From positions 186,001-250,000 of the forward strand of contig NZ_BOPF01000007.1 in NCBI RefSeq assembly GCF_016863615.1: a stretch of 64,000 nt of DNA, given 5' to 3'. The notes beneath the pieces were generated by a model that did no database searches, was not told the DNA's origin, and worked only from the letters and a program-made list of their open reading frames with translations. This DNA comes from Virgisporangium aliadipatigenens (GTDB lineage Bacteria; Actinomycetota; Actinomycetes; Mycobacteriales; Micromonosporaceae). Positions 30,477 through 42,722 of the stretch are shown here, one piece after another. Position 1 is the first letter of the stretch. Each line of letters opens with the position of its first letter. The position numbers and the translations under genes were made by a program.

Positions 30477-30586
30477 CGTCTTGTGACGGAACGCTGCGTG
30501 CCGCTAGCGTCACGGGAATCCTGTAACGGTTGACGGCTCAGGTCCGGGAGCCTGCCTGTCGAAGAAACGGTGTGGATATCGGTCCG

Positions 30587-33500
30587 ATGGCGAACGACAT
30601 CCAGGGCCGGCAGGCGCACGTTCCACCCGACGTGCCCGGTCTTGCCGTGGTGGGCGCCATCGGCCACGGCGCGACAGCCGACGTGTACCGCGTCCGGCGG
30701 CGGGGTGCCGAGTACGCCCTGAAGATCCTGCGCGAGGCGGGCACGCCGGCGACGCGGCGGGCGTTCCGGCGGGAGGCGGCGCTCCTCGCCTGTGTCGACC
30801 ATCCCGGCCTTCCCGACGTGTACGAGGTGGGCCTCGCCGGCGGACGGCCCTACCTGCTGATGGAACTCGTCGCCGGGCGCCGGCTGGGCGAGCTGCTCGG
30901 CACCCCGCACCCCGACGCGCGGGTCATCGCCTGGGGCCTCGACGTCGCCGACGCGCTCGGCGCCGCGCACCGCCTCGAACTCGTGCACCGCGACGTGAAG
31001 CCGGACAACGTCGTCGTCGGTCCGGACGGCCGGGCCCGCCTGGTCGACCTCGGCCTCGCCACCCGGGTCGCCGCGGATCCCACCGACGTGGCCGCCGGCA
31101 CGCTCGCGTACGCCGCCCCGGAACAGTCCGGGGCGCTGCGCCGGGCCGTCGACGGGCGGGCCGACCTGTACTCCCTCGGCGTGGTGCTGTTCGAGGCGGC
31201 GACGGGTGCGCCGCCGTTCGCCGGCTCCGACCCGGGCGAATTGATCCGGATGCACGCCGTCACGCCGGCACCCGACCCGCGAACGCTGCGGGCCGACCTC
31301 TCGCCGGCGCTGGCCGCCGTCATCTGCCGGCTGCTCGCGAAGGACCCCGACGACCGGTACCCGCATGCCGCCGCCGTTCGCGACGACCTGCGCCGGGCGG
31401 CCGACGACCCCGCCCGCACCGACCTGCCCACCCGCCACGCCGGTTCGGCGCCGCACCGCGAACCGCCGCTCGTCGGGCGGCGCGACGAGGTCGACGTGCT
31501 GACCGCGCGCTGGGAACGGGCCCGTTCGGGCGGCGGCGGGTGTGCGCTGCTGACCGGGCCGGCCGGCGGCGGCAAGAGTCGCCTCGCGCGGGAGATCATG
31601 AACCTGGTGCGCCGCGGCGGACACCCGGTGCTGCACGGCAAGGCCGAGGCCGGTGGGACGCTGCCGCTGGCGGCGCTGCGCGCGGCGGTCGACGGGCACG
31701 TGCGCGCGGTGCGGGAACTGCCCGGGCCGGGGCGCGCCGCCGCCCGCGAACGCCTCGTCGCGGCGGCCGGCGAAGAGGCGCCGCTCGTCGCGCGCCTCTC
31801 CCCGGACCTGGCCGAACTGCTGGACGCCGACGCGGCCGACGTGCCGGCGACCGGCGAACAGTTCGCGGCGGCGGTGGCGGCGTTCCTGGCCGGGCTGGCC
31901 GGCGCCGGCGAGCCGGCCCTGCTCTGCCTCGACGACGTGCAGTGGCTCGACGACGTGAGCCGCGCGGTGCTGCGCCGGCTCGCCCCGCTCCTGCCCGGGA
32001 CGTCGCTGCTGGTGCTGGCGACCGCGCGGGACGACGAGGAGAGCGTGCCGGCGCTGACGACGTTCCGCGGAACGATCGGAACGGCGGTGGACCTGGAGGC
32101 GCGCCTCGGACCGCTCACGGTCGACGAGATCGGCGCGCTCGTGACGGCCGAGTGCGGCGGGATGCGGCTGGACCGCGCGGACGCCGCCCGGCTGGCCGCG
32201 CACTCCGACGGCAACCCGTTCGCGCTGCTGGAGGTGGTCAAGGCGGTCGTGGACGCCGGGCTGGCGCGGCCGGACTGGGGCAGTTGGCAGGTCGACCACG
32301 AGGAACTGGCCCGGCTCGACCTGCCCACCGACGTGGCCGCGCTGGTCCTCAAGCGGGTCGACGCGCTCGACGGGCCGAGCCTGCGGCTGCTCGGGCTGGC
32401 CGCCGTCGTCGGCAACCACTTCCCGGTCGACGTCGTCGCCCGCGCGGCCGGCGTCGAGCGCTCCGCCGCGGAGGACGCGCTGACCGACGCCACCCGGCAC
32501 CGCCTCGTGGAGAACTGCGGCGGCGGCCGCTTCGCGTTCCTGCACGACCGGATCCGGGAGGCCCTGCTCGACCGCTTCACCGACGACGAGCGGCGCGCCG
32601 CCCACGACCGGGTCGCCGACGCCCTCGCCGCCCTCGACCGGCGCGACCCGGCGGCGCTGTACGCCCTCGCCGACCACTGCGTGCGCGGCACCGTGGCGCG
32701 CGACCCCGGGCGGGCGGCCCGCGCGGCGGCGGTCGCCGGGCGGCTGGCGCTGGCCGACCACGCCCCGGCGCAGGCGGTCCTCTTCCTGGAGAGCGCCGTC
32801 GCGGCCGCCGAGGTCGCCGGCGAGCCCGCCGACACCGACCTGCTGCGCACCCTCGGCGTCGCCCTGCACCGGGTCGGTCGCTTCGACGACGCCGTCGGGG
32901 TGTTCCGGGCCGCGCTGGCCGTGACGGACGTTCCGACGGAACGGGCCGGACTGCACCGCTCCATCGCCCAGGTCCACGACAGCACGTGGAACACCACCGC
33001 GCAGGCGGCGGCCGTCGAAGCGGGCCTCGCCGAGCTGGGACGCCCGCTGCCGACGAACCCGGTCGGCCTGGCCCTGTCGACCCTCGGCATCGGCGTCGCC
33101 GGCTGGCTCGGCGCGCGCCTCGGCATCGGCAGGGGCACCGCGCGCGGCGCCGAACGCGACACCTACCGCCTCGTCATGGGCCTCTACGACCTCTACGGCC
33201 GCTACCTCATCCGGGACCTGCGGGCGGACCGCTCGGTGGCGCTGAAGGCGCGCGGCGGCTACCTCGCCCACCGGGTCGGCGTCTCGGCGGAGACGGCCCG
33301 CTCCAAATCGGAGGGCGGGCTCATCGCCCGGATGGCCGGCCTGCCCCGGCTCGCCGAACGCCTCGACGCCGCGGCGCTGCGGATGGCGCAGGAGGTCGGT
33401 GACCCCCGGGTCGTGTCGTACCTGGCGTGGCTGCGCGCGTTCGGCATCTTCAGCAGCGGCGCCGACCAGGGGGAGAGCATCCGCCGCGCGATGGCCGAAC

Positions 33501-35809
33501 ACGGCCGGTGGATGGATCCCGGGCACCTGCTCGACTGCTACGCCATGCTCGCCTGGGATCTGATCCTGCGCGGGGACACCGACGCGGCGCGGGAGTGGTT
33601 CGACCGGCGGCGCGCGCTGGTCGAGGCGAGCGGGCAGGTCGGTCCGCTGGTGCTCATCCCGGTCGAGGCGGCGCTGCCGGCGCTCTGCGGCCAGGTCGCC
33701 GAGGCGGCCGCGGTGCTCGGCCGGTTCCGCTCCGGGGAGGGGCTGCCGCGGGCGATGCGGGTCGACACGCTCATCGCCACGATGCAGTCCGCGGTGGAAC
33801 AGCGCGAGTTCGGCGCGATTTTCGACGACGCGGTCGCGCGCTTCGACGAGATGCGGCTGCGCCCCCGGGGCATGCTCGCCACGCTGCACTCGGTGTACGT
33901 GTACCGCGCCTACGGCCGGGTCGAGCAGCTGCGGCTGGGCGCCACCGATCCGGCGAGCGCCCGGGAGGCGGTGCGGCGCCTGGGCACCGTCAGCAACCGG
34001 CCGATCCTCGCCGCGCACCACGCGGTGCTCAAGGCGTCGCTGCACGAGGTGCTCGGCGAGCCCGGTAAGGCGTTGCGCGCGCTCGGCGCCGCCGAACCGG
34101 TGCTGCTCGCCGTCGACGCGCCGCTGGTGGTCTTCGAGACGGCGTTCACCCGGGCGCGGGCGTTGCGGGCGTCGGGATTCCCCGGCGAGGCCGGCCGGCA
34201 GGCGGAGACGGCGCTGCGGGTGGCCGACACCCAGGGCTGGCCGCACCGGGCGCGCTGGGTGCGGGCGGCGTTCGGGATCGGCACCGATGTCCACAGTGGA
34301 CGGCCGGGGCGCAGCGCCGACGCGGTGCACGCCGGCACCTACCGCCGCCGCCTCGCCGCCCTCGAACAGGTCAGTCTCGCCTCGGCGCGGGTGCTCGACC
34401 CGGACCGGCTGGCCCGCATCGCGCTCGACGAGAGCGTGCGCATCCTCGGCGCCGAACGGGCGCTGCTGTTCCTCACCGACGGCCCGTCCGACCGGCTCGT
34501 CCCGCGGGTCGGCCGCGACGCCGACGGTGCCGACCTCGACGGGTTCAGCGGGTACAGCGCCGGACTGGTCGAACGGGTCCGCCGCAGCCGTCGCCCGCTG
34601 GTCGTCGCCGGCACCGACGAGGGCGAGGCGCTCGGTTCGCAGAGCGCCGTCCGGCACGGGCTGCGCAGCATCATCATCGCGCCGATCCTGTTGGAACACC
34701 GCCTGTGGGGCGTGGTCTACCTGGACAGCCGCGTCGCCAAGGGGATCTTCACGCACGACGACGTCGACATCCTGACCGCCGTGACCAACCAGGTGGCGGC
34801 CGCCCTGGAGACGGCCCGCGCCGCCCGCCTGGAACTGGCCGTGGCGACCGTCGCCCGGGAACGCGACCTCGCCGAGACGCTGCGCGCCGCGATGCACGAG
34901 GTGAGCGCCACCCTCGACCCGGCCACGGTGCTGCGGAAGGTGCGCGAGTGCGCGCAGCGCTTCGCCGGCGACAGCGGCGGCTGGCTGGTCACCGTCGACG
35001 GCGCGCACGTCGACCCGCCCGTGGCAGCGCTCGACCCGGCCCGGATCGCGGCGCTGGCCGGCCGCACGGCGCCGGTGCGCGGCACCGCCGCCGAGCCGTG
35101 GACCGGGATGTTCCCGGGGCAGGGCCTGGTGTGCTGGCTCGCGGTGCCGCTGGCCGTGCGCGGGGAACCGATCGGGGTGCTGGTCCTCGCCGCCGCCCGG
35201 CCGGACGCGTTCGGCCCCGCGCAGGTGGAGACCGTGGAGACGATCGCGGCGCAGGGCATGGTGGCCTACGAGAACGCGCGGCTGTTCAGCGAGGTGCGGC
35301 GGCTGGCCAGCGTCGACGGGCTGACCCAGCTGGCCAACCGGCGGCAGTTCATGGAGGCGACCGATCGGGAGGTGGCCACGGCGCGGCGGCACGGGCGCCC
35401 GCTCGCCGCCGTGATGGTCGACATCGACCGGTTCAAACAGGTCAACGACACGTGGGGGCACCAGGTCGGCGACGACGTCATCCGGGCCGTCGCGGCGCGG
35501 CTGCGCCTGCACAGCCGCGAGGTCGACCTGGCCGGCCGCTACGGCGGCGAGGAGTTCGCCCTCGTCCTGCCCGACGTCGGCGACGCGGCCGGCAGCATCG
35601 CCGAACGGCTGCGCGTCGAGGTGGCCGGCGCGCCGGTGGAGACGGCCGCCGGCCCGGTCCCGGTCACGATCAGCCTCGGCGTCGCCTACCTGGAGGCGAC
35701 CGACACCGACGCCGCCCCGCTGCTCGCCCGCGCCGACGAGTGCCTGTACCGGGCCAAGCGCGGCGGCCGCAACCGCGTGGTGGTCCATCCGTCACACGCG
35801 GTCAACTGA
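30587..35809 (+). CDS. Ser/Thr kinase - ATPase - GAF - GAF - GGDEF multidomain signalling protein
   Basis: 1740-aa protein. Residues about 15-275 form a Ser/Thr kinase (GHGATADVYRV loop, YALKIL Lys, HRDVKPDNVVV at 134, DLG for DFG, AAPEQ). Residues about 300-620 are an AAA-type ATPase with Walker A GPAGGGKS at about 322-329 and LLCLDDVQWLDD. About 620-1250 is a helical TPR-like region. Two GAF domains follow (about 1270-1420 and 1430-1570). The C-terminal GGDEF domain has GGEEF at about 1652, with an RxxD inhibitory site (REVD) five residues before it, so diguanylate cyclase activity with product inhibition is likely. ATG 30587 was chosen; GTG 30572 is possible. Its end overlaps the convergent response-regulator gene by 8 nt. 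Confidence 0.88.
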   Translation: MANDIQGRQAHVPPDVPGLAVVGAIGHGATADVYRVRRRGAEYALKILREAGTPATRRAFRREAALLACVDHPGLPDVYEVGLAGGRPYLLMELVAGRRLGELLGTPHPDARVIAWGLDVADALGAAHRLELVHRDVKPDNVVVGPDGRARLVDLGLATRVAADPTDVAAGTLAYAAPEQSGALRRAVDGRADLYSLGVVLFEAATGAPPFAGSDPGELIRMHAVTPAPDPRTLRADLSPALAAVICRLLAKDPDDRYPHAAAVRDDLRRAADDPARTDLPTRHAGSAPHREPPLVGRRDEVDVLTARWERARSGGGGCALLTGPAGGGKSRLAREIMNLVRRGGHPVLHGKAEAGGTLPLAALRAAVDGHVRAVRELPGPGRAAARERLVAAAGEEAPLVARLSPDLAELLDADAADVPATGEQFAAAVAAFLAGLAGAGEPALLCLDDVQWLDDVSRAVLRRLAPLLPGTSLLVLATARDDEESVPALTTFRGTIGTAVDLEARLGPLTVDEIGALVTAECGGMRLDRADAARLAAHSDGNPFALLEVVKAVVDAGLARPDWGSWQVDHEELARLDLPTDVAALVLKRVDALDGPSLRLLGLAAVVGNHFPVDVVARAAGVERSAAEDALTDATRHRLVENCGGGRFAFLHDRIREALLDRFTDDERRAAHDRVADALAALDRRDPAALYALADHCVRGTVARDPGRAARAAAVAGRLALADHAPAQAVLFLESAVAAAEVAGEPADTDLLRTLGVALHRVGRFDDAVGVFRAALAVTDVPTERAGLHRSIAQVHDSTWNTTAQAAAVEAGLAELGRPLPTNPVGLALSTLGIGVAGWLGARLGIGRGTARGAERDTYRLVMGLYDLYGRYLIRDLRADRSVALKARGGYLAHRVGVSAETARSKSEGGLIARMAGLPRLAERLDAAALRMAQEVGDPRVVSYLAWLRAFGIFSSGADQGESIRRAMAEHGRWMDPGHLLDCYAMLAWDLILRGDTDAAREWFDRRRALVEASGQVGPLVLIPVEAALPALCGQVAEAAAVLGRFRSGEGLPRAMRVDTLIATMQSAVEQREFGAIFDDAVARFDEMRLRPRGMLATLHSVYVYRAYGRVEQLRLGATDPASAREAVRRLGTVSNRPILAAHHAVLKASLHEVLGEPGKALRALGAAEPVLLAVDAPLVVFETAFTRARALRASGFPGEAGRQAETALRVADTQGWPHRARWVRAAFGIGTDVHSGRPGRSADAVHAGTYRRRLAALEQVSLASARVLDPDRLARIALDESVRILGAERALLFLTDGPSDRLVPRVGRDADGADLDGFSGYSAGLVERVRRSRRPLVVAGTDEGEALGSQSAVRHGLRSIIIAPILLEHRLWGVVYLDSRVAKGIFTHDDVDILTAVTNQVAAALETARAARLELAVATVARERDLAETLRAAMHEVSATLDPATVLRKVRECAQRFAGDSGGWLVTVDGAHVDPPVAALDPARIAALAGRTAPVRGTAAEPWTGMFPGQGLVCWLAVPLAVRGEPIGVLVLAAARPDAFGPAQVETVETIAAQGMVAYENARLFSEVRRLASVDGLTQLANRRQFMEATDREVATARRHGRPLAAVMVDIDRFKQVNDTWGHQVGDDVIRAVAARLRLHSREVDLAGRYGGEEFALVLPDVGDAAGSIAERLRVEVAGAPVETAAGPVPVTISLGVAYLEATDTDAAPLLARADECLYRAKRGGRNRVVVHPSHAVN
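34290..34301. repeat. Iterated 12-mer TCCACAGTGGAC, copy 4
   Basis: Exact copy inside the kinase/GGDEF gene, read in a different codon phase (Val-His-Ser-Gly), so the motif is conserved as DNA and not as peptide. Confidence 0.6.
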
Positions 35810-38622: not shown

Positions 38623-39831
38623 TTACAGCAGCCCGTGCTTGTCCGCCGACGTCTCGCCCCTCGACTCCAGCAGCACGGGCGCGTTCAGGGCCTGCGCGAT
38701 CGACTCCCTCAGGTCCGGCACGACGTCGCCGTAGACCGGGCGGCACTCCAGGAGGAGGCGGGTGAGCTTCTCCTGGCGGTCGAGGTCGCCGGGCGGCCCC
38801 GGCACGATCCGGTCCAGGCGGTCGTAGCTGTCGCACCGGCGCAGCGGCAGCCCGGCGAGGTCCAGGTGGGTGAGCGCGAGCCCGTCGACGCCGCCGCAGA
38901 CCTCCAGCGCGTACCGGTGCGCGACCGCGTCGAAGTGGCCGAAGCGGAACGCGCCCTGCCACGGGTTCGTCGGATTGTGCCGGTCGGCGAGCGGTAGCGT
39001 CGGATCCTCCGTCACCAGCGGGCCCGGGCCGTGGCGGGTCGTCACGACGCGCAGCACGCCGAGCCGGGTCGCCGTGTGGCCCGCCTCCGCGAGGAGTGCC
39101 TGCGCGTTGCCGAACGTCGTCGTGCTCCACGTGGTGTACGGGTGGAAGCCGTGCCACTCGTCGAGCAGGACGCCCTGCGCGCCCTCGAAGACGACGGTGC
39201 CCTCGTCCAGCAGGCGGGCCGTGTGCGATCCGTCCACAATGGACACCCGGGAGGCGAACGCCCGGTACGCCGCGACGCAGTCCGCCGGCGGCGGCGTGTC
39301 CAGGACGCCCAGCCGGTGGCGCAGCAGCGTCAGCTTGTCCCGCAGCAGGGCCGGGGTCAGGCAGTCGCGCACCCGCGGTGCGTCCGCCCCGAACTCGAGC
39401 AGGTACGCCATCGTCTCGCCGACGCCCATGCCGCAGGAGCCGTGCCGGTCCGCGCCGCGCGCCAGTTCGCGGGCCCGGTTGGCGGCCCGGTGGTAAGGCG
39501 TCGCCAGCGGGGCGTCGCCGTCGACGGTGAGCCGCTCCAGCGCGTCGGTCACCCCGATGGACGCCAGATGGTCGGCCTCCGGCGCGAGTGCGAGCGGGTC
39601 CACCACCACGTACCGGGACAGGTGGGTGCGCACGCCGGGTCGCAGGGTCCCCGCGCCGAACTGGGCGAAGGTGTGCCGCCGCCCGTCGGGCAGGACCACG
39701 GTGTGCGCGGCCTGCCCGCCCCCGTTGAAGCGGACCACCGCGTGGACCGGCCGGCTCGCGCACAGCCAGTCCACCACGGTGCCCTTGCCCGCGTCGCCGT
39801 AGCCCAGGTCGACGACGATCACGTGGCTCAC
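38623..39831 (-). CDS. Divergent adenylosuccinate synthetase-like (PurA-family) protein
   Basis: 402-aa PurA-fold protein. It keeps the P-loop GYGDAGKG with Asp13, the catalytic His43 in GGQAAHT, and the middle block [20 protein letters not shown] with TTFGNA. However, the Asp-binding signature of true PurA (a TGRRRRTGW-like block) is replaced by [15 protein letters not shown], the IMP-side TTGRGIGP by a GSCGMGVGE form, and it is about 30 residues short. So it may ligate something other than aspartate to IMP. It starts GTG one base after the stop of the VWA gene and is the last gene of the NrtR cassette. Housekeeping purA is probably elsewhere. Confidence 0.8.
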
Positions 39832-39832
39832 G

Positions 39833-40786
39833 TCAGAGCCGTTCGACCGGGGTGCCGCCGCCGAGCGCGGGCAGGGCGGACCGGGCGACCCGGCCGGCGC
39901 CGACGTGAGCCAGCGCCTTCGACACCGTGGCGCCGGCGTCGGAGCCCGCGTCCCGCAGGTCGGCGAGGCCGGTGTCGAGGTCGACGGCCTCCTCGCCGAG
40001 GCCCACGGTGAGCGCGATCGTCTCGCAGGCGGCGTCGAGGTCGTCCAGTTCGAGCGCCTGCTGGCCGAGCAGGTCGCGCCAGAACGTCAGCACCCGCTTG
40101 TCCCGCCCGTAGCCGGCGTCGCTCGGCAGCAGGTAGTAGGTGTCCCACCGGCTGCGTACCTCGTCGAGGATGGCGCGGGTCGGAATGTCCTCTGTGGACC
40201 GTCCGCCGATGACGGCGCGCACCTCGTTCGCCTTGACCCTGGAGTAGGCCAGCTCGTCGCCGATGATGAACAGGTAGCCGCGCCGGCCGCGCTTGTCCCA
40301 CGCGTCGGTCCGCACGTGGCGGGCCATGAAGTACAGGGCCAGTTCGTACGACTCGGTCATCTGGCCGCCCCCGCCGCCCTCCAGGAGGATGCGGCCGAGG
40401 TCGTCGTCCATCCGGTTGTCCGACTCGAACTGCCCCACCTGCAGCGGCGCCCGGTCGCAGGTGGCGTCGCCGATGGCGCCGAACATGATCTGCGGGTCCT
40501 TCGCGTAGCCGCCCCGCAGCAGCAGCCCGAGCAGCTGCGGCAGCTTCTCCTGCAGCCGCCGGGGGACGTGTCCCATGGAGCCGGTGACGTCGAAGAGCAC
40601 CGCGATCGGCAGGGACTGCGGGTGTTCGTCGCTGTCGCGGCTCTCCCGCACGGCGGCGCGCGGGTCGAGTGCACTGTGGACGGTGCGCGCGCCGCTGTCG
40701 GTGTGGGCGAACGCGCTCCTGCCGGTCGAGGCGCGGTAGCGCGACGCGGCGTCGTAGACGTCGGTGGACCAGATTCCGCTTCCCAT
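39833..40786 (-). CDS. VWA-domain protein of the NrtR cassette
   Basis: 317-aa protein with a von Willebrand A fold. The metal site DVTGS is at residues 66-70 (FDVTGSMG), preceded by hydrophobic strand PIAVLF, with later GGGGGQMTESYELALYF and GYLFIIGDEL. No signal peptide or membrane segment is seen, so it is cytoplasmic. AGGAGG lies just before ATG 40786. The gene starts 8 nt after the pseudokinase gene stop and is followed after 1 nt by the PurA-like gene. The role is unknown; VWA proteins often act as metal-dependent adaptors. Confidence 0.8.
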   Translation of the reverse strand: MGSGIWSTDVYDAASRYRASTGRSAFAHTDSGARTVHSALDPRAAVRESRDSDEHPQSLPIAVLFDVTGSMGHVPRRLQEKLPQLLGLLLRGGYAKDPQIMFGAIGDATCDRAPLQVGQFESDNRMDDDLGRILLEGGGGGQMTESYELALYFMARHVRTDAWDKRGRRGYLFIIGDELAYSRVKANEVRAVIGGRSTEDIPTRAILDEVRSRWDTYYLLPSDAGYGRDKRVLTFWRDLLGQQALELDDLDAACETIALTVGLGEEAVDLDTGLADLRDAGSDAGATVSKALAHVGAGRVARSALPALGGGTPVERL

Positions 40787-40794
40787 GGCTCCTC

Positions 40795-41832
40795 CTAAGG
40801 ATTGAGGCGGAAGGGTGTGAACACGCGCGGGCCGAACAGGCGGTCGAGCACGCCGTCCAGCTCCGCGAGCAGGCGCAGGGCGTCGTCGGGGCGCTGGCGC
40901 AGGTGCGGCAGCCGGCAGCCGGCGGCGAAGTGGGTGAGGGCCTTCGGCGCGCGGTCGCCCATCAGTTCGGTCATGACGCGGGCGGCCATCGCGAGGTCGG
41001 TGCCGGCGAGCGGCGGCTCCTTGGCCGGCACCTCCGGCGGGTACCAGTCGGCGTAGCCGGGCACCATGGCCGGCACCACCCCGGCCGTGTGCGCCAGGGC
41101 GCCCGGGCCGGTGGGCACCGCTGCCGAGCGGCCGTGGTGCGTGCGGCCGGAGAAGTCGACGGAGTAGCACCAGTCGATCAGGACCAGGCCGCGTTCGGCC
41201 GGGTGGATGAGGATGTGCGGGGGGAGCACGGCGCCGTGCACGACCCCGGCGCGGTGCGCCACGGACAGGGCGATGAGCAGCCGGCGCCACATCCAGGCCG
41301 CGTCGCGGGGCGGCAGCCCGTCGGGATAGGCCCGCCGCACCTCGGTGAGCGGGTGCAGGCCGCCGGCGGTGCCGATGACGTTGACGCGGCGTTCGGCTCC
41401 GGTGGCGGGGTCGCGGTGGCGGAAGGAGTCCACGAGCCGCGGCAGGTAGGTGAGGAAGCGCGGGTCGCCGCGGCTCGCGATGGTGCGCAGCGCCGACGTC
41501 TCCCGTTCCATCAGGTCGTTGTCGGAAGGGTGCCGCGGCAGCTTGAGCAACCGGTCGCCACCCACGTCGTAGAGGTCGGCCACGTCGCCGCGATGGCGCG
41601 GCGACGCGCCGAGCCGGTAGGTCGCCGTCGCGGTCCGCAGCGTGACCCCGTCGCGGTGCGTCTCCCACAGCCTTCCCAGCCGGGCGAACGCCTCCGTGGC
41701 GGCGTCCCGCCGGTGCGCGGGAACGGCGTCGGGATGCAGCACCCGGGCCAGCTCGCGGTAGCCGTGCGCGGCGAAGAGGACGGCCGGATCCGTCGTACCG
41801 CACACCACGTCCAGCGCCTCGTCGAACGTCAT
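40795..41832 (-). CDS. J-domain-like plus pseudokinase fusion protein
   Basis: 345-aa protein. The first about 60 residues look like a J domain: an HPD motif (residues 33-35, RVLHPDAV) between two helices. A protein-kinase-like domain follows. It keeps a Lys (RLLKLPR), a Glu (METS-type helix) and the Asp of the metal loop (LIDWCYS), but the catalytic loop reads HGAVLPPHIL, so the catalytic Asp is missing. This indicates a pseudokinase or an unusual nucleotide-dependent enzyme. ATG 41832 shares one base with the NrtR-type gene stop. The J domain suggests a link with Hsp70 chaperones. Confidence 0.78.
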   Translation of the reverse strand: MTFDEALDVVCGTTDPAVLFAAHGYRELARVLHPDAVPAHRRDAATEAFARLGRLWETHRDGVTLRTATATYRLGASPRHRGDVADLYDVGGDRLLKLPRHPSDNDLMERETSALRTIASRGDPRFLTYLPRLVDSFRHRDPATGAERRVNVIGTAGGLHPLTEVRRAYPDGLPPRDAAWMWRRLLIALSVAHRAGVVHGAVLPPHILIHPAERGLVLIDWCYSVDFSGRTHHGRSAAVPTGPGALAHTAGVVPAMVPGYADWYPPEVPAKEPPLAGTDLAMAARVMTELMGDRAPKALTHFAAGCRLPHLRQRPDDALRLLAELDGVLDRLFGPRVFTPFRLNP

Positions 41833-42632
41833 CACCGCACGGCCTCCTCGCGGGAGGGCCGCAGCAGCGCGGGATGCAGCAGCCGCGCGTCGCCGGCCCG
41901 GTACAGCTTCGAGCGGGGACCCCCGCGCGTGCCGCCGCGCTCGGTGGTGGCACCGGTGCTCTCCACGAACCCGGGCACCGACAGCACCTTGCGGTGGAAG
42001 TTGCCCGCGTGCAGGCTGTCCCCCCAGACGGCCTCGTAGACGGCCCGCAGCTCGGCGATCGTGAACTCCGGCCCGGTGAACCGCGTCGCGAGCGGCGTGT
42101 ACTCGAGCTTGCCCCGGGCCCGCTCCAGCCCGTCGGCGAGGATCCGCGCGTGGTCGAACGCCAACCGCCGGCTGGTGCCCGGCCGCTGCCGGACCGGACG
42201 GTCCCGGGAGCCGGCCGCGTCGGGCAGGCCGAGCGCGTCGACCGGGACCCAGGCGGCCTCGCGGGCGTCGCTGCCGGCCGCCGGGTCGGGCAGGTCGGGG
42301 GCGAAGGCCAGGTGCGCCACGGAGACGACGCGCATGCGCGGATCCCGGTCCGGGGCGCCGTAGCTGGCGAGCTGCTCCAGATGGAAGCGACCGAGGGTCG
42401 TCACCCCGGTCTCCTCCAGCAGCTCGCGGGCGGCGGCGGCGCGCAGGTCCTCGTCGGGCTGCACGAAGCCGCCCGGCAGGGCCCACGCCCCTTCGAACGG
42501 CGGCCCGCCGCGCCGCACGAGGAGCACGTGGAGCGCGCCGTCGCGGATGGTCAGCGCCACCACGTCGACGGTCACCGCCACCGCCGGGAACGCCCGCGGG
42601 TCGTAGGCGGCGAGGTACTCCTCCTCGGTCAC
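41832..42632 (-). CDS. NrtR-type Nudix / winged-helix regulator
   Basis: 266-aa protein. A complete Nudix box is present (Gly55 to Gly76: GFVQPDEDLRAAAARELLEE then TGV), so ADP-ribose pyrophosphatase-type catalysis may be retained. The C-terminal part (DGLERARGKLEYTPLATRFT, FTIAELRAVYEAVWG, NFHRKVLSVPGFVE) is the winged helix of NrtR regulators. NrtR proteins bind ADP-ribose and repress NAD metabolism genes; here the only linked genes are the J-pseudokinase, VWA and PurA-like genes. GTG 42632 follows GGAGGG. A perfect palindrome lies 16 nt upstream, probably its own operator. Confidence 0.88.
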   Translation of the reverse strand: MTEEEYLAAYDPRAFPAVAVTVDVVALTIRDGALHVLLVRRGGPPFEGAWALPGGFVQPDEDLRAAAARELLEETGVTTLGRFHLEQLASYGAPDRDPRMRVVSVAHLAFAPDLPDPAAGSDAREAAWVPVDALGLPDAAGSRDRPVRQRPGTSRRLAFDHARILADGLERARGKLEYTPLATRFTGPEFTIAELRAVYEAVWGDSLHAGNFHRKVLSVPGFVESTGATTERGGTRGGPRSKLYRAGDARLLHPALLRPSREEAVR

Positions 42633-42647
42633 GGCGCCCTCCAGTTG

Positions 42648-42662
42648 TACTCAATCTGAGTA
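42648..42662. promoter_or_regulatory. Palindrome upstream of the NrtR cassette, probable operator
   Basis: TACTCA-ATC-TGAGTA is a perfect 6-3-6 palindrome. An outer inverted repeat (CAGTTGT 42642-42648 with ACAACTG 42678-42684) surrounds it. The region is AT-rich against its surroundings and lies directly in front of the NrtR-type gene. Confidence 0.65.
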
Positions 42663-42722
42663 GATCTCGATGTGAGAACAACTGTGCCCGGGAAACGGCC
42701 CGATGTCAACGTCGAATTCGCG

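Follow-up and report, generated by a model that had tools for sequence, protein, structure and literature searches.

A four-gene cassette lies in a 64,000-nucleotide stretch of the Virgisporangium aliadipatigenens genome (contig NZ_BOPF01000007.1, positions 186,001 to 250,000; the whole stretch is called the window below). It encodes a NUDIX-NrtR_WHD regulator, a fusion of a J domain to a pseudokinase, a VWA (von Willebrand factor A) protein and a ligase resembling adenylosuccinate synthetase (PurA). By sequence comparison, the last three genes form a core common to phages, plasmids and chromosomes, and bacterial copies have in addition an NrtR-type regulator and a local operator. We tentatively propose, at somewhat less than an even chance, that this is a phage-derived conflict cassette retained by bacteria under a switch responsive to nicotinamide adenine dinucleotide (NAD) or ADP-ribose, and that its ligase would couple a 6-oxopurine nucleotide to a non-aspartate amine. 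The host genome measures 10.29 Mb and the relatives are actinobacterial.

All four open reading frames are on the minus strand (Table 1), where an earlier reading made from the letters alone, hereafter the sequence-only reading, had placed them. That reading described genes packed with 1-nt overlaps or gaps of at most 8 nt, and the measured joints agree: the stop codon of the NUDIX gene and the ATG of the kinase gene share base 41832, 8 nt separate the kinase and VWA genes (40787-40794) and a single nucleotide (39832) separates the VWA and PurA-like genes. Its identification of the parts also stands, with a full Nudix box and NrtR_WHD domain in the regulator, a lost catalytic Asp in the HRD motif of the kinase fold, an intact DxTGS in the VWA protein and altered loops in the PurA-like enzyme.

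Table 1. Features of the cassette, in window coordinates
Feature	Position	Strand	Remarks
NUDIX-NrtR_WHD regulator	41832..42632	-	266 aa, GTG start, full Nudix box
J-domain (HPD) and pseudokinase fusion	40795..41832	-	345 aa; Ala in place of the HRD Asp; Lys97 and Glu111 present
VWA protein	39833..40786	-	317 aa; metal-ion-dependent adhesion site (MIDAS) DVTGS 40577-40591; Met-Gly start, Gly2 codon 40781-40783
PurA-like ligase	38623..39831	-	402 aa, GTG start; aspartate loop altered to WQGAFR, 38944-38961
Tandem inverted operator, two facing half-sites GTTGTWCTCANNNNGAGW	42643..42683	.	42644-42661 (+) and 42665-42682 (-)

We searched for the cassette with a VWA profile, in one genome per species across 84,980 species (at least 576 confirmed stretches) and in IMG/VR (407 confirmed stretches). 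The best 80 loci of each search were analysed; both sets lean toward close relatives, and the viral set includes near-duplicates (L147/L148 and L143/L145, L numbers being our handles for loci). Among the 80 bacterial loci, 79 have the PurA-like gene, 78 the kinase-like gene and 78 the NUDIX gene; the two loci without the latter, L044 and L070, start inside or at the kinase gene. The corresponding viral figures are 77, 62 and 2 of 80. Where all three genes are present, their order is kinase-VWA-PurA in every one of 78 bacterial loci and in 59 of 60 viral ones. Across 296 genomes of the same class, we found the VWA gene in 28 (E 1e-20), the PurA-like gene in 27 (E 1e-60) and the kinase gene in 26 (E 1e-40), the last two sets being nested entirely within the first. 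Judged by these counts, the association of the cassette genes exceeds chance, and the separation in other genomes that the sequence-only reading would have counted against its proposal is not seen. We also looked for a wider operon and rejected it: across the 80 bacterial loci, among neighbouring families encoded on the cassette strand up to about 2 kb away, none recurs in over 3 of 21 genus groups, which were labelled by hand with Micromonospora and its close kin as one group.

The VWA gene is present in 208 of 50,697 phage records (189 from Mycobacterium, 1 from Mycolicibacterium, 10 from Rhizobium, 6 from Vibrio and 2 others), with RefSeq and GenBank entries for a single phage counted separately. 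M. smegmatis is the host for most of the 190 mycobacteriophage records. A search for the PurA-like gene returned 227 phage records, with numbers identical to those of the VWA gene for Mycobacterium, Mycolicibacterium, Rhizobium and Vibrio and 21 records from outside these four genera; the two genes lie side by side in the four phage records opened, and their co-occurrence in the remainder is an agreement of genus counts. Phage Sebata has the order kinase (gp260), VWA (gp261), a small protein (gp262) and PurA-like (gp263). Of 72,556 plasmid records, 21 carry the VWA gene, 11 of them from Rhodococcus and the rest from Tsukamurella, Variovorax and alphaproteobacteria. The window proteins match PHROGs 3043 (kinase, 1.5e-40), 2971 (unknown, 2e-77) and 1211 (2-aminooxy adenylosuccinate synthetase, 3.9e-76), which are the same three core families. 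PHROGs lists them separately, and the entries retrieved mention no common cassette.

A tree of the PurA-like proteins, built by a quick method, unrooted and with 41 of its 91 inner branches below a support of 80, places canonical PurA in a single group with a stem of 2.67. Nineteen of the 20 bacterial PurA-like rows form a clade of 22 (support 96) with the rows of L117, L118 and L119, which branch near the base of the bacterial clade; on these three viral contigs there are genes for terminase, portal, phage polymerase or UvsX-like proteins. The Variovorax row falls outside the clade, and diversity is far greater among the 64 viral rows than among the bacterial ones. Because bacterial copies cover a small part of the diversity, the simplest reading of the tree is that the cassette arose in phages and was captured at least twice by bacteria; we infer the direction of transfer, from phages to bacteria, on a tree that has no root and is weak inside.

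The PurA-like protein belongs to the Pfam family Adenylsucc_synt (190.3 bits, cut-off 27), and the profile of its family aligns over nearly the full length with PDB entry 3hid (E 1.9e-51). The sequence-only reading took it for an altered paralogue, its proposal being at stake if this were the sole and normal PurA of the organism. A canonical PurA is indeed encoded elsewhere in the genome, on contig C49 (606.9 bits, against 189.6 for the PurA-like protein), and a relative (G204) likewise holds both. The PurA-like protein stays below the NCBIfam equivalog cut-offs for PurA (155 bits against 402 for PRK01117.1; 116.6 against 395.55 for TIGR00184). One may argue from the PurA fold and from the 39-40% identity to canonical PurA that we are dealing with an ordinary second adenylosuccinate synthetase surrounded by passenger genes. 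This is very improbable in view of the canonical copy on C49, the strict nesting with the VWA gene in 296 genomes and a family-wide loss of the arginines that bind aspartate.

This loss appears in a comparison of 83 bacterial and 78 viral PurA-like rows with 27 canonical PurA rows. Asp13, Lys16, His43, Gln219 and Asp324 are present in 100% of the bacterial and viral rows (161 of 161). Since phosphoryl transfer in E. coli PurA involves Asp13, Lys16, His41 and Gln224, the 6-phosphoryl chemistry of the PurA-like enzyme appears intact. Relative to PurA (PDB 3hid and 1ade), the fold, Asp13, Lys16, the His, the Gln and the Asp of TKLD are thus retained, whereas the canonical aspartate loop TTGRxRR is replaced by [WFY]QGx[FL]R, one residue shorter. 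In per-column identities, which are sensitive to gap placement, the bacterial loop (WQGxFR) has Gln, Gly and Arg in 100% and Phe in 95% of 83 rows, and the viral loop has Gln in 95%, Gly in 94%, Phe in 70% or Leu in 16%, and Arg in 98% of 78 rows; whatever the gap placement, loop arginines drop from three to one, and Phe or Leu replaces one of them. Furthermore, TRVG becomes TRHG, with His in 100% of bacterial and viral rows, the Lys of TKLD becomes His in bacteria and Cys or His in most viruses, and the Asn preceding AGHT becomes Gln (100% of bacterial and 98% of viral rows). Seven further phage and plasmid proteins have the loop type and the TRHG of the family, and six of them fit QGx-hydrophobic/Ser-Arg. 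Vibrio phage Va1 is exceptional in having Lys at the last loop Arg and in keeping Asn ahead of AGHT instead of the PurA-like Gln.

Arg305 of PurA also takes part in aspartate binding. Arg303 of the E. coli enzyme is described as contacting both the aspartate substrate and O2' of inosine monophosphate, IMP (PMC8342488). Because the aspartate-binding arginines are lost, aspartate is an unlikely amine for the PurA-like enzyme, which probably joins something else to a purine. The sequence-only reading had offered three ideas, a chaperone-linked response to NAD stress, a nucleotide-modifying defence and the synthesis of a modified purine; the loss of these arginines favours a new nucleotide chemistry. 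The lost aspartate site and the adjoining pseudokinase would also suit a non-catalytic sensor of IMP and GTP that controls a chaperone complex of VWA protein and J-pseudokinase. We consider such a sensor unlikely, as the five residues conserved in 161 of 161 rows would be superfluous for it and the replacement residues are almost as invariant (100% for the His of TRHG).

PurZ (or PurZ0), another PurA paralogue found in phages, serves the synthesis of 2-aminoadenine for phage DNA (Z-DNA). We may also hypothesize that the PurA-like enzyme acts in the manner of PurZ and supplies phage DNA with a modified deoxynucleotide, and that bacterial copies were captured for another use. The occurrence of a PurA fold in large phages and the PHROGs label, which is filed under nucleotide metabolism, agree with this hypothesis, and the loss of Arg303, which touches the ribose O2' in E. 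coli (PMC8342488), could open the site to deoxy substrates. However, the probability of this scenario seems low: the protein scores 39.3 bits with the PurZ model NF038379 (cut-off 300), the best PurZ chain among the profile matches being 6fm1 (E 1e-05), and repressor-controlled chromosomal copies would be ill-suited to a genome-wide base replacement. VWA proteins and J-pseudokinases are not known to have a role in PurZ systems. Moreover, PurZ has Ser at the Asp13 position in 100% of 147 phage sequences and still uses aspartate, according to PMC12884076, whereas the PurA-like family has Asp13 in all 161 rows and has lost the aspartate site; we thus rejected an identity with PurZ. In a tree of PurA homologues published with those PurZ data (NAR 2026, PMC12884076), 365 of 767 proteins are, by subtraction, outside both the PurA and the PurZ groups, and the PurA-like family may be among them.

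Pfam calls no domain on the VWA protein, and its profile has no match at E 1 among PDB sequences. Residues 56-299 of its predicted model (mean predicted local distance difference test score, pLDDT, of 92.4; alignment of 65 sequences) match VWA and integrin beta-I domains (Z 16.2, root-mean-square deviation 2.7, 187 residues aligned). In the MIDAS, Asp66, Thr68 and Gly69 are invariant in 84 bacterial and 81 viral rows and Ser70 is found in 100% and 98% of them, the rows for these counts and for those of variability having been trimmed at the Met-Gly near the profile start. The unbiased figure for Gly2 is 153 of 164 VWA proteins with a Met-Gly start at the first profile position; by eye, the other 11 have a Gly too, 8 of them after a Met a few residues off and 3 after Leu, Ile or Lys. 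Six more phage and alphaproteobacterial VWA proteins start with Met-Gly; the Methylorubrum VWA reading frame (L204) is N-terminally incomplete, and neither a kinase nor a NUDIX gene was found at that locus. This start is odd because the 30 or so residues that follow mostly vary widely, residues 8-39 being for the most part highly variable. The VWA gene of Mycobacterium phage CharlieB (L199:3501-5282), labelled HNH endonuclease in its record, contains an in-frame intein that ends in SN before a Cys, just ahead of an invariant GDE. Inteins tend to favour critical sites.

The loss of the aspartate arginines, the close pairing with the VWA gene and the conserved Met-Gly start together suggest a more specific version of the chemistry, which we regard as quite unlikely. 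Once Met is removed, the N-terminal glycine of the VWA protein could itself be the amine substrate, and the purine nucleotide would be joined to this tail via C6. Such a protein purinylation would, from IMP, produce a calculated mass shift of +330.04 Da, compared with +329.05 Da for AMPylation.

In the pseudokinase, the Pfam match to DnaJ is sub-threshold (15.6 bits, cut-off 27.8) and no kinase domain is called. From residue 62 onward, its predicted model (mean pLDDT 93.1, alignment of 56 sequences) matches Ser/Thr kinases (for PknB, Z 24.4, root-mean-square deviation 2.0 and 223 residues aligned). The catalytic Asp of the HRD motif is replaced by Ala in 97% of 82 bacterial rows; among the 63 viral rows in which a kinase-like protein was detected, the position is Ala in 47%, Gly in 44% and Asp in 3%. 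Lys97 and Glu111 are retained in 98% of bacterial and 53% of viral rows. The HPD motif is conserved on both sides (His 96%, Pro 96% and Asp 97% in bacteria; 93%, 92% and 95% in viruses). These residues suggest that the pseudokinase may bind nucleotide and recruit Hsp70. The kinase-like gene of a Variovorax plasmid (L035:5960-6946) starts with a zinc-ribbon-like CxxC...CxxC instead of a J domain, and its best Pfam match, a Kdo kinase, is slightly under the cut-off.

The regulator scores above the Pfam cut-offs for NUDIX (84.3 bits, cut-off 21.1) and NrtR_WHD (41.1, cut-off 27) and below that of the NCBIfam equivalog NtrR, the ADP-ribose-responsive repressor (125.4 bits, cut-off 400). The palindromic operator announced by the sequence-only reading ahead of the genes is present at 42643-42683: TACTCAATCTGAGTA at 42648-42662 and TCTCGATGTGAGA at 42665-42677 are flanked by AGTTGT and ACAACT arms (42643-42648 and 42678-42683). 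With up to one mismatch, the extended half-site GTTGTWCTCANNNNGAGW has just two matches in the whole genome (one for the reversed control pattern), both in this operator, and the regulator therefore looks dedicated to the cassette. The shorter WCTCANNNTGAGW is not enriched genome-wide (2 places, against 4 for the control pattern); within the window it has 1 match against 0.04 expected. In relatives, a motif [AT]CTCAnnnTGAG[AT] recurs 5' of the NUDIX gene, often in tandem: a TCTCA arm with a 3-nt spacer was detected in 12 of 51 non-redundant upstream regions (of 79), the maximum for any arm being 2 in 100 mononucleotide shuffles, which preserve base composition alone.

A divergent NrtR_WHD gene over the cut-off adjoins the cassette in four of five alphaproteobacterial plasmid loci (L200-L203); the NUDIX part of these regulators scores over the cut-off in two, under it in a third and is undetected in the fourth. 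No such NrtR_WHD gene is in view beside the cassette in L204. In plasmids from Rhodococcus and Tsukamurella, the NUDIX gene is located downstream of the cassette and the WHD scores below the cut-off. The two viral cases have a NUDIX-WHD gene immediately before the VWA gene (L131) and about 3 kb before the kinase gene (L168). The NrtR of M. smegmatis similarly combines NUDIX and DNA-binding domains next to a palindromic operator, and 50 mM ADP-ribose released it from DNA (PMC6800001). It differs in its neighbours, which are NAD synthesis genes, and in its operator, GTTTTCGA-N7-TCGAAAAC in place of the tandem GTTGTWCTCANNNNGAGW of the cassette (PMC6800001). Because the regulator is of NrtR type, and because such regulators also stand beside four of five alphaproteobacterial plasmid cassettes, it is fair to infer a response to an NAD or ADP-ribose signal. 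The sequence-only reading had gone further in proposing a system linked to NAD or ADP-ribose as a whole. The nature of the regulator supports this idea; however, as a NUDIX match is found in just 2 of 80 viral loci, the NAD link may be part of bacterial regulation rather than of the core chemistry.

Of 49 phage records searched, 13 contain a NADAR gene, which is no more than about 2 kb from the cassette in three, L117, Vibrio phage Va1 and the L131 record (L117:4344-5036; L197:6209-6859; G579:C1:252746-253216). A nearby NADAR gene is a second ADP-ribose link beside the NUDIX regulator. These three records are consistent with another interpretation of the cassette, a host response to NAD stress in which the VWA protein, the J-domain protein and Hsp70 would handle ADP-ribosylated or damaged proteins. 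The model for it is the predicted counter-ADP-ribosylation systems centred on ADP-ribosylglycohydrolase (ARG), which comprise a Nudix-helix-turn-helix repressor and a vWA peptide-binding chaperone and occur in actinobacteria and proteobacteria (PMC9503650). The cassette differs in having a PurA-like ligase, a J-pseudokinase and a phage-borne core, and none of the 7 ARG genes of the genome is on its contig (C7). As the more diverse viral copies are, in addition, almost all devoid of the regulator, we find this interpretation improbable.

The cassette matches no known system that we found: its parts have known folds, and by their defining tests it falls outside PurA, PurZ and the ARG-centred systems, in line with the earlier statement that no known pathway uses this gene set. 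Literature searches aimed at the cassette or at the phage gene returned no description, most subscription journals being outside their coverage.

Several neighbouring genes deserve mention. In Rhizobium phage RHph_TM30 (L198:2942-5269), the 5 kb or so upstream of the VWA-PurA pair hold genes for a HAD hydrolase, PRTase_3 and NUDIX that resemble the nucleoside module of Ter systems. We rejected a Ter-type nucleoside module as a general partner, relatives of the RHph_TM30 PRTase_3 and HAD genes being found in no other of 84 viral loci. Genes for R2K-clade ATP-grasp ligases lie near the PurA-like gene in 15 of the 84 (for example, L147:8765-9577) and HAD_SAK_2-like genes are present in 13, largely within a single phage clade. 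A DNA-ligase-like gene is found in 15 viral loci. Weak PADLOC matches of the NUDIX protein to PDC-S07 and of the kinase to PD-T4-6 and MkoA were dismissed as probably mere common folds. In the window itself, a 1759-aa open frame on the plus strand (30530-35809) starts, by eye, like a Ser/Thr kinase (HRDVKPDN) and has a GGDEF-type end (GGEEF).

Under our proposal of a phage-derived conflict cassette, the PurA-like enzyme would phosphorylate O6 of a 6-oxopurine nucleotide, and a non-aspartate amine would displace this phosphate to yield an N6-substituted purine nucleotide or conjugate. The VWA protein may use its metal site and its conserved Met-Gly tail to present or supply the amine, and the J-pseudokinase may recruit Hsp70 and nucleotide to load or release the amine so presented. 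In bacteria, the repressor would quit its operator upon binding ADP-ribose or a related NAD product, for instance during phage attack. Phages would direct the identical chemistry at a target of the host or of their own.

A number of observations weigh against this proposal. The loss of the aspartate site could equally mean an inactive enzyme, and Vibrio phage Va1 has Asn in place of Asp324. The kinase-like gene is undetected in 18 of 80 viral loci, and the VWA gene occurs without a PurA-like gene in L116, L163, L190, L196 and L203, the absence in L196 being limited by the contig end at which this locus stops. The 28 genomes of the same class include apparently damaged copies: one VWA match with two stops and one partial, four kinase matches with one stop each, and three PurA-like matches that are partial or in pieces. 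The Nudix box, scored with one search pattern, is intact in 59 of the 80 loci with a NUDIX match and lost in 21. NADAR genes are at least 10 kb away in the other 10 of 13 records, counts that have no matched control set. Finally, PADLOC models give no match for the VWA or PurA-like protein.

Two of the loci with no PurA-like gene found nearby, L116 (Actinoplanes siamensis) and L203 (a Rhodovulum plasmid), hold a VWA gene together with a NUDIX gene. They are possibly decaying copies or a VWA-only form.

If the proposal is true, the adenylosuccinate synthetase family would gain, in addition to PurA and PurZ, a branch that uses a new amine partner. Phage genes now filed as PurA-like, kinase or hypothetical would become the parts of one machine, and a common one, as 190 mycobacteriophage records, duplicates of one phage included, carry the cassette. 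Should its product be a modified nucleotide or a nucleotide-protein conjugate, this would represent a new chemistry in the conflict between phages and their hosts, captured by bacteria and placed under an NrtR-type switch.

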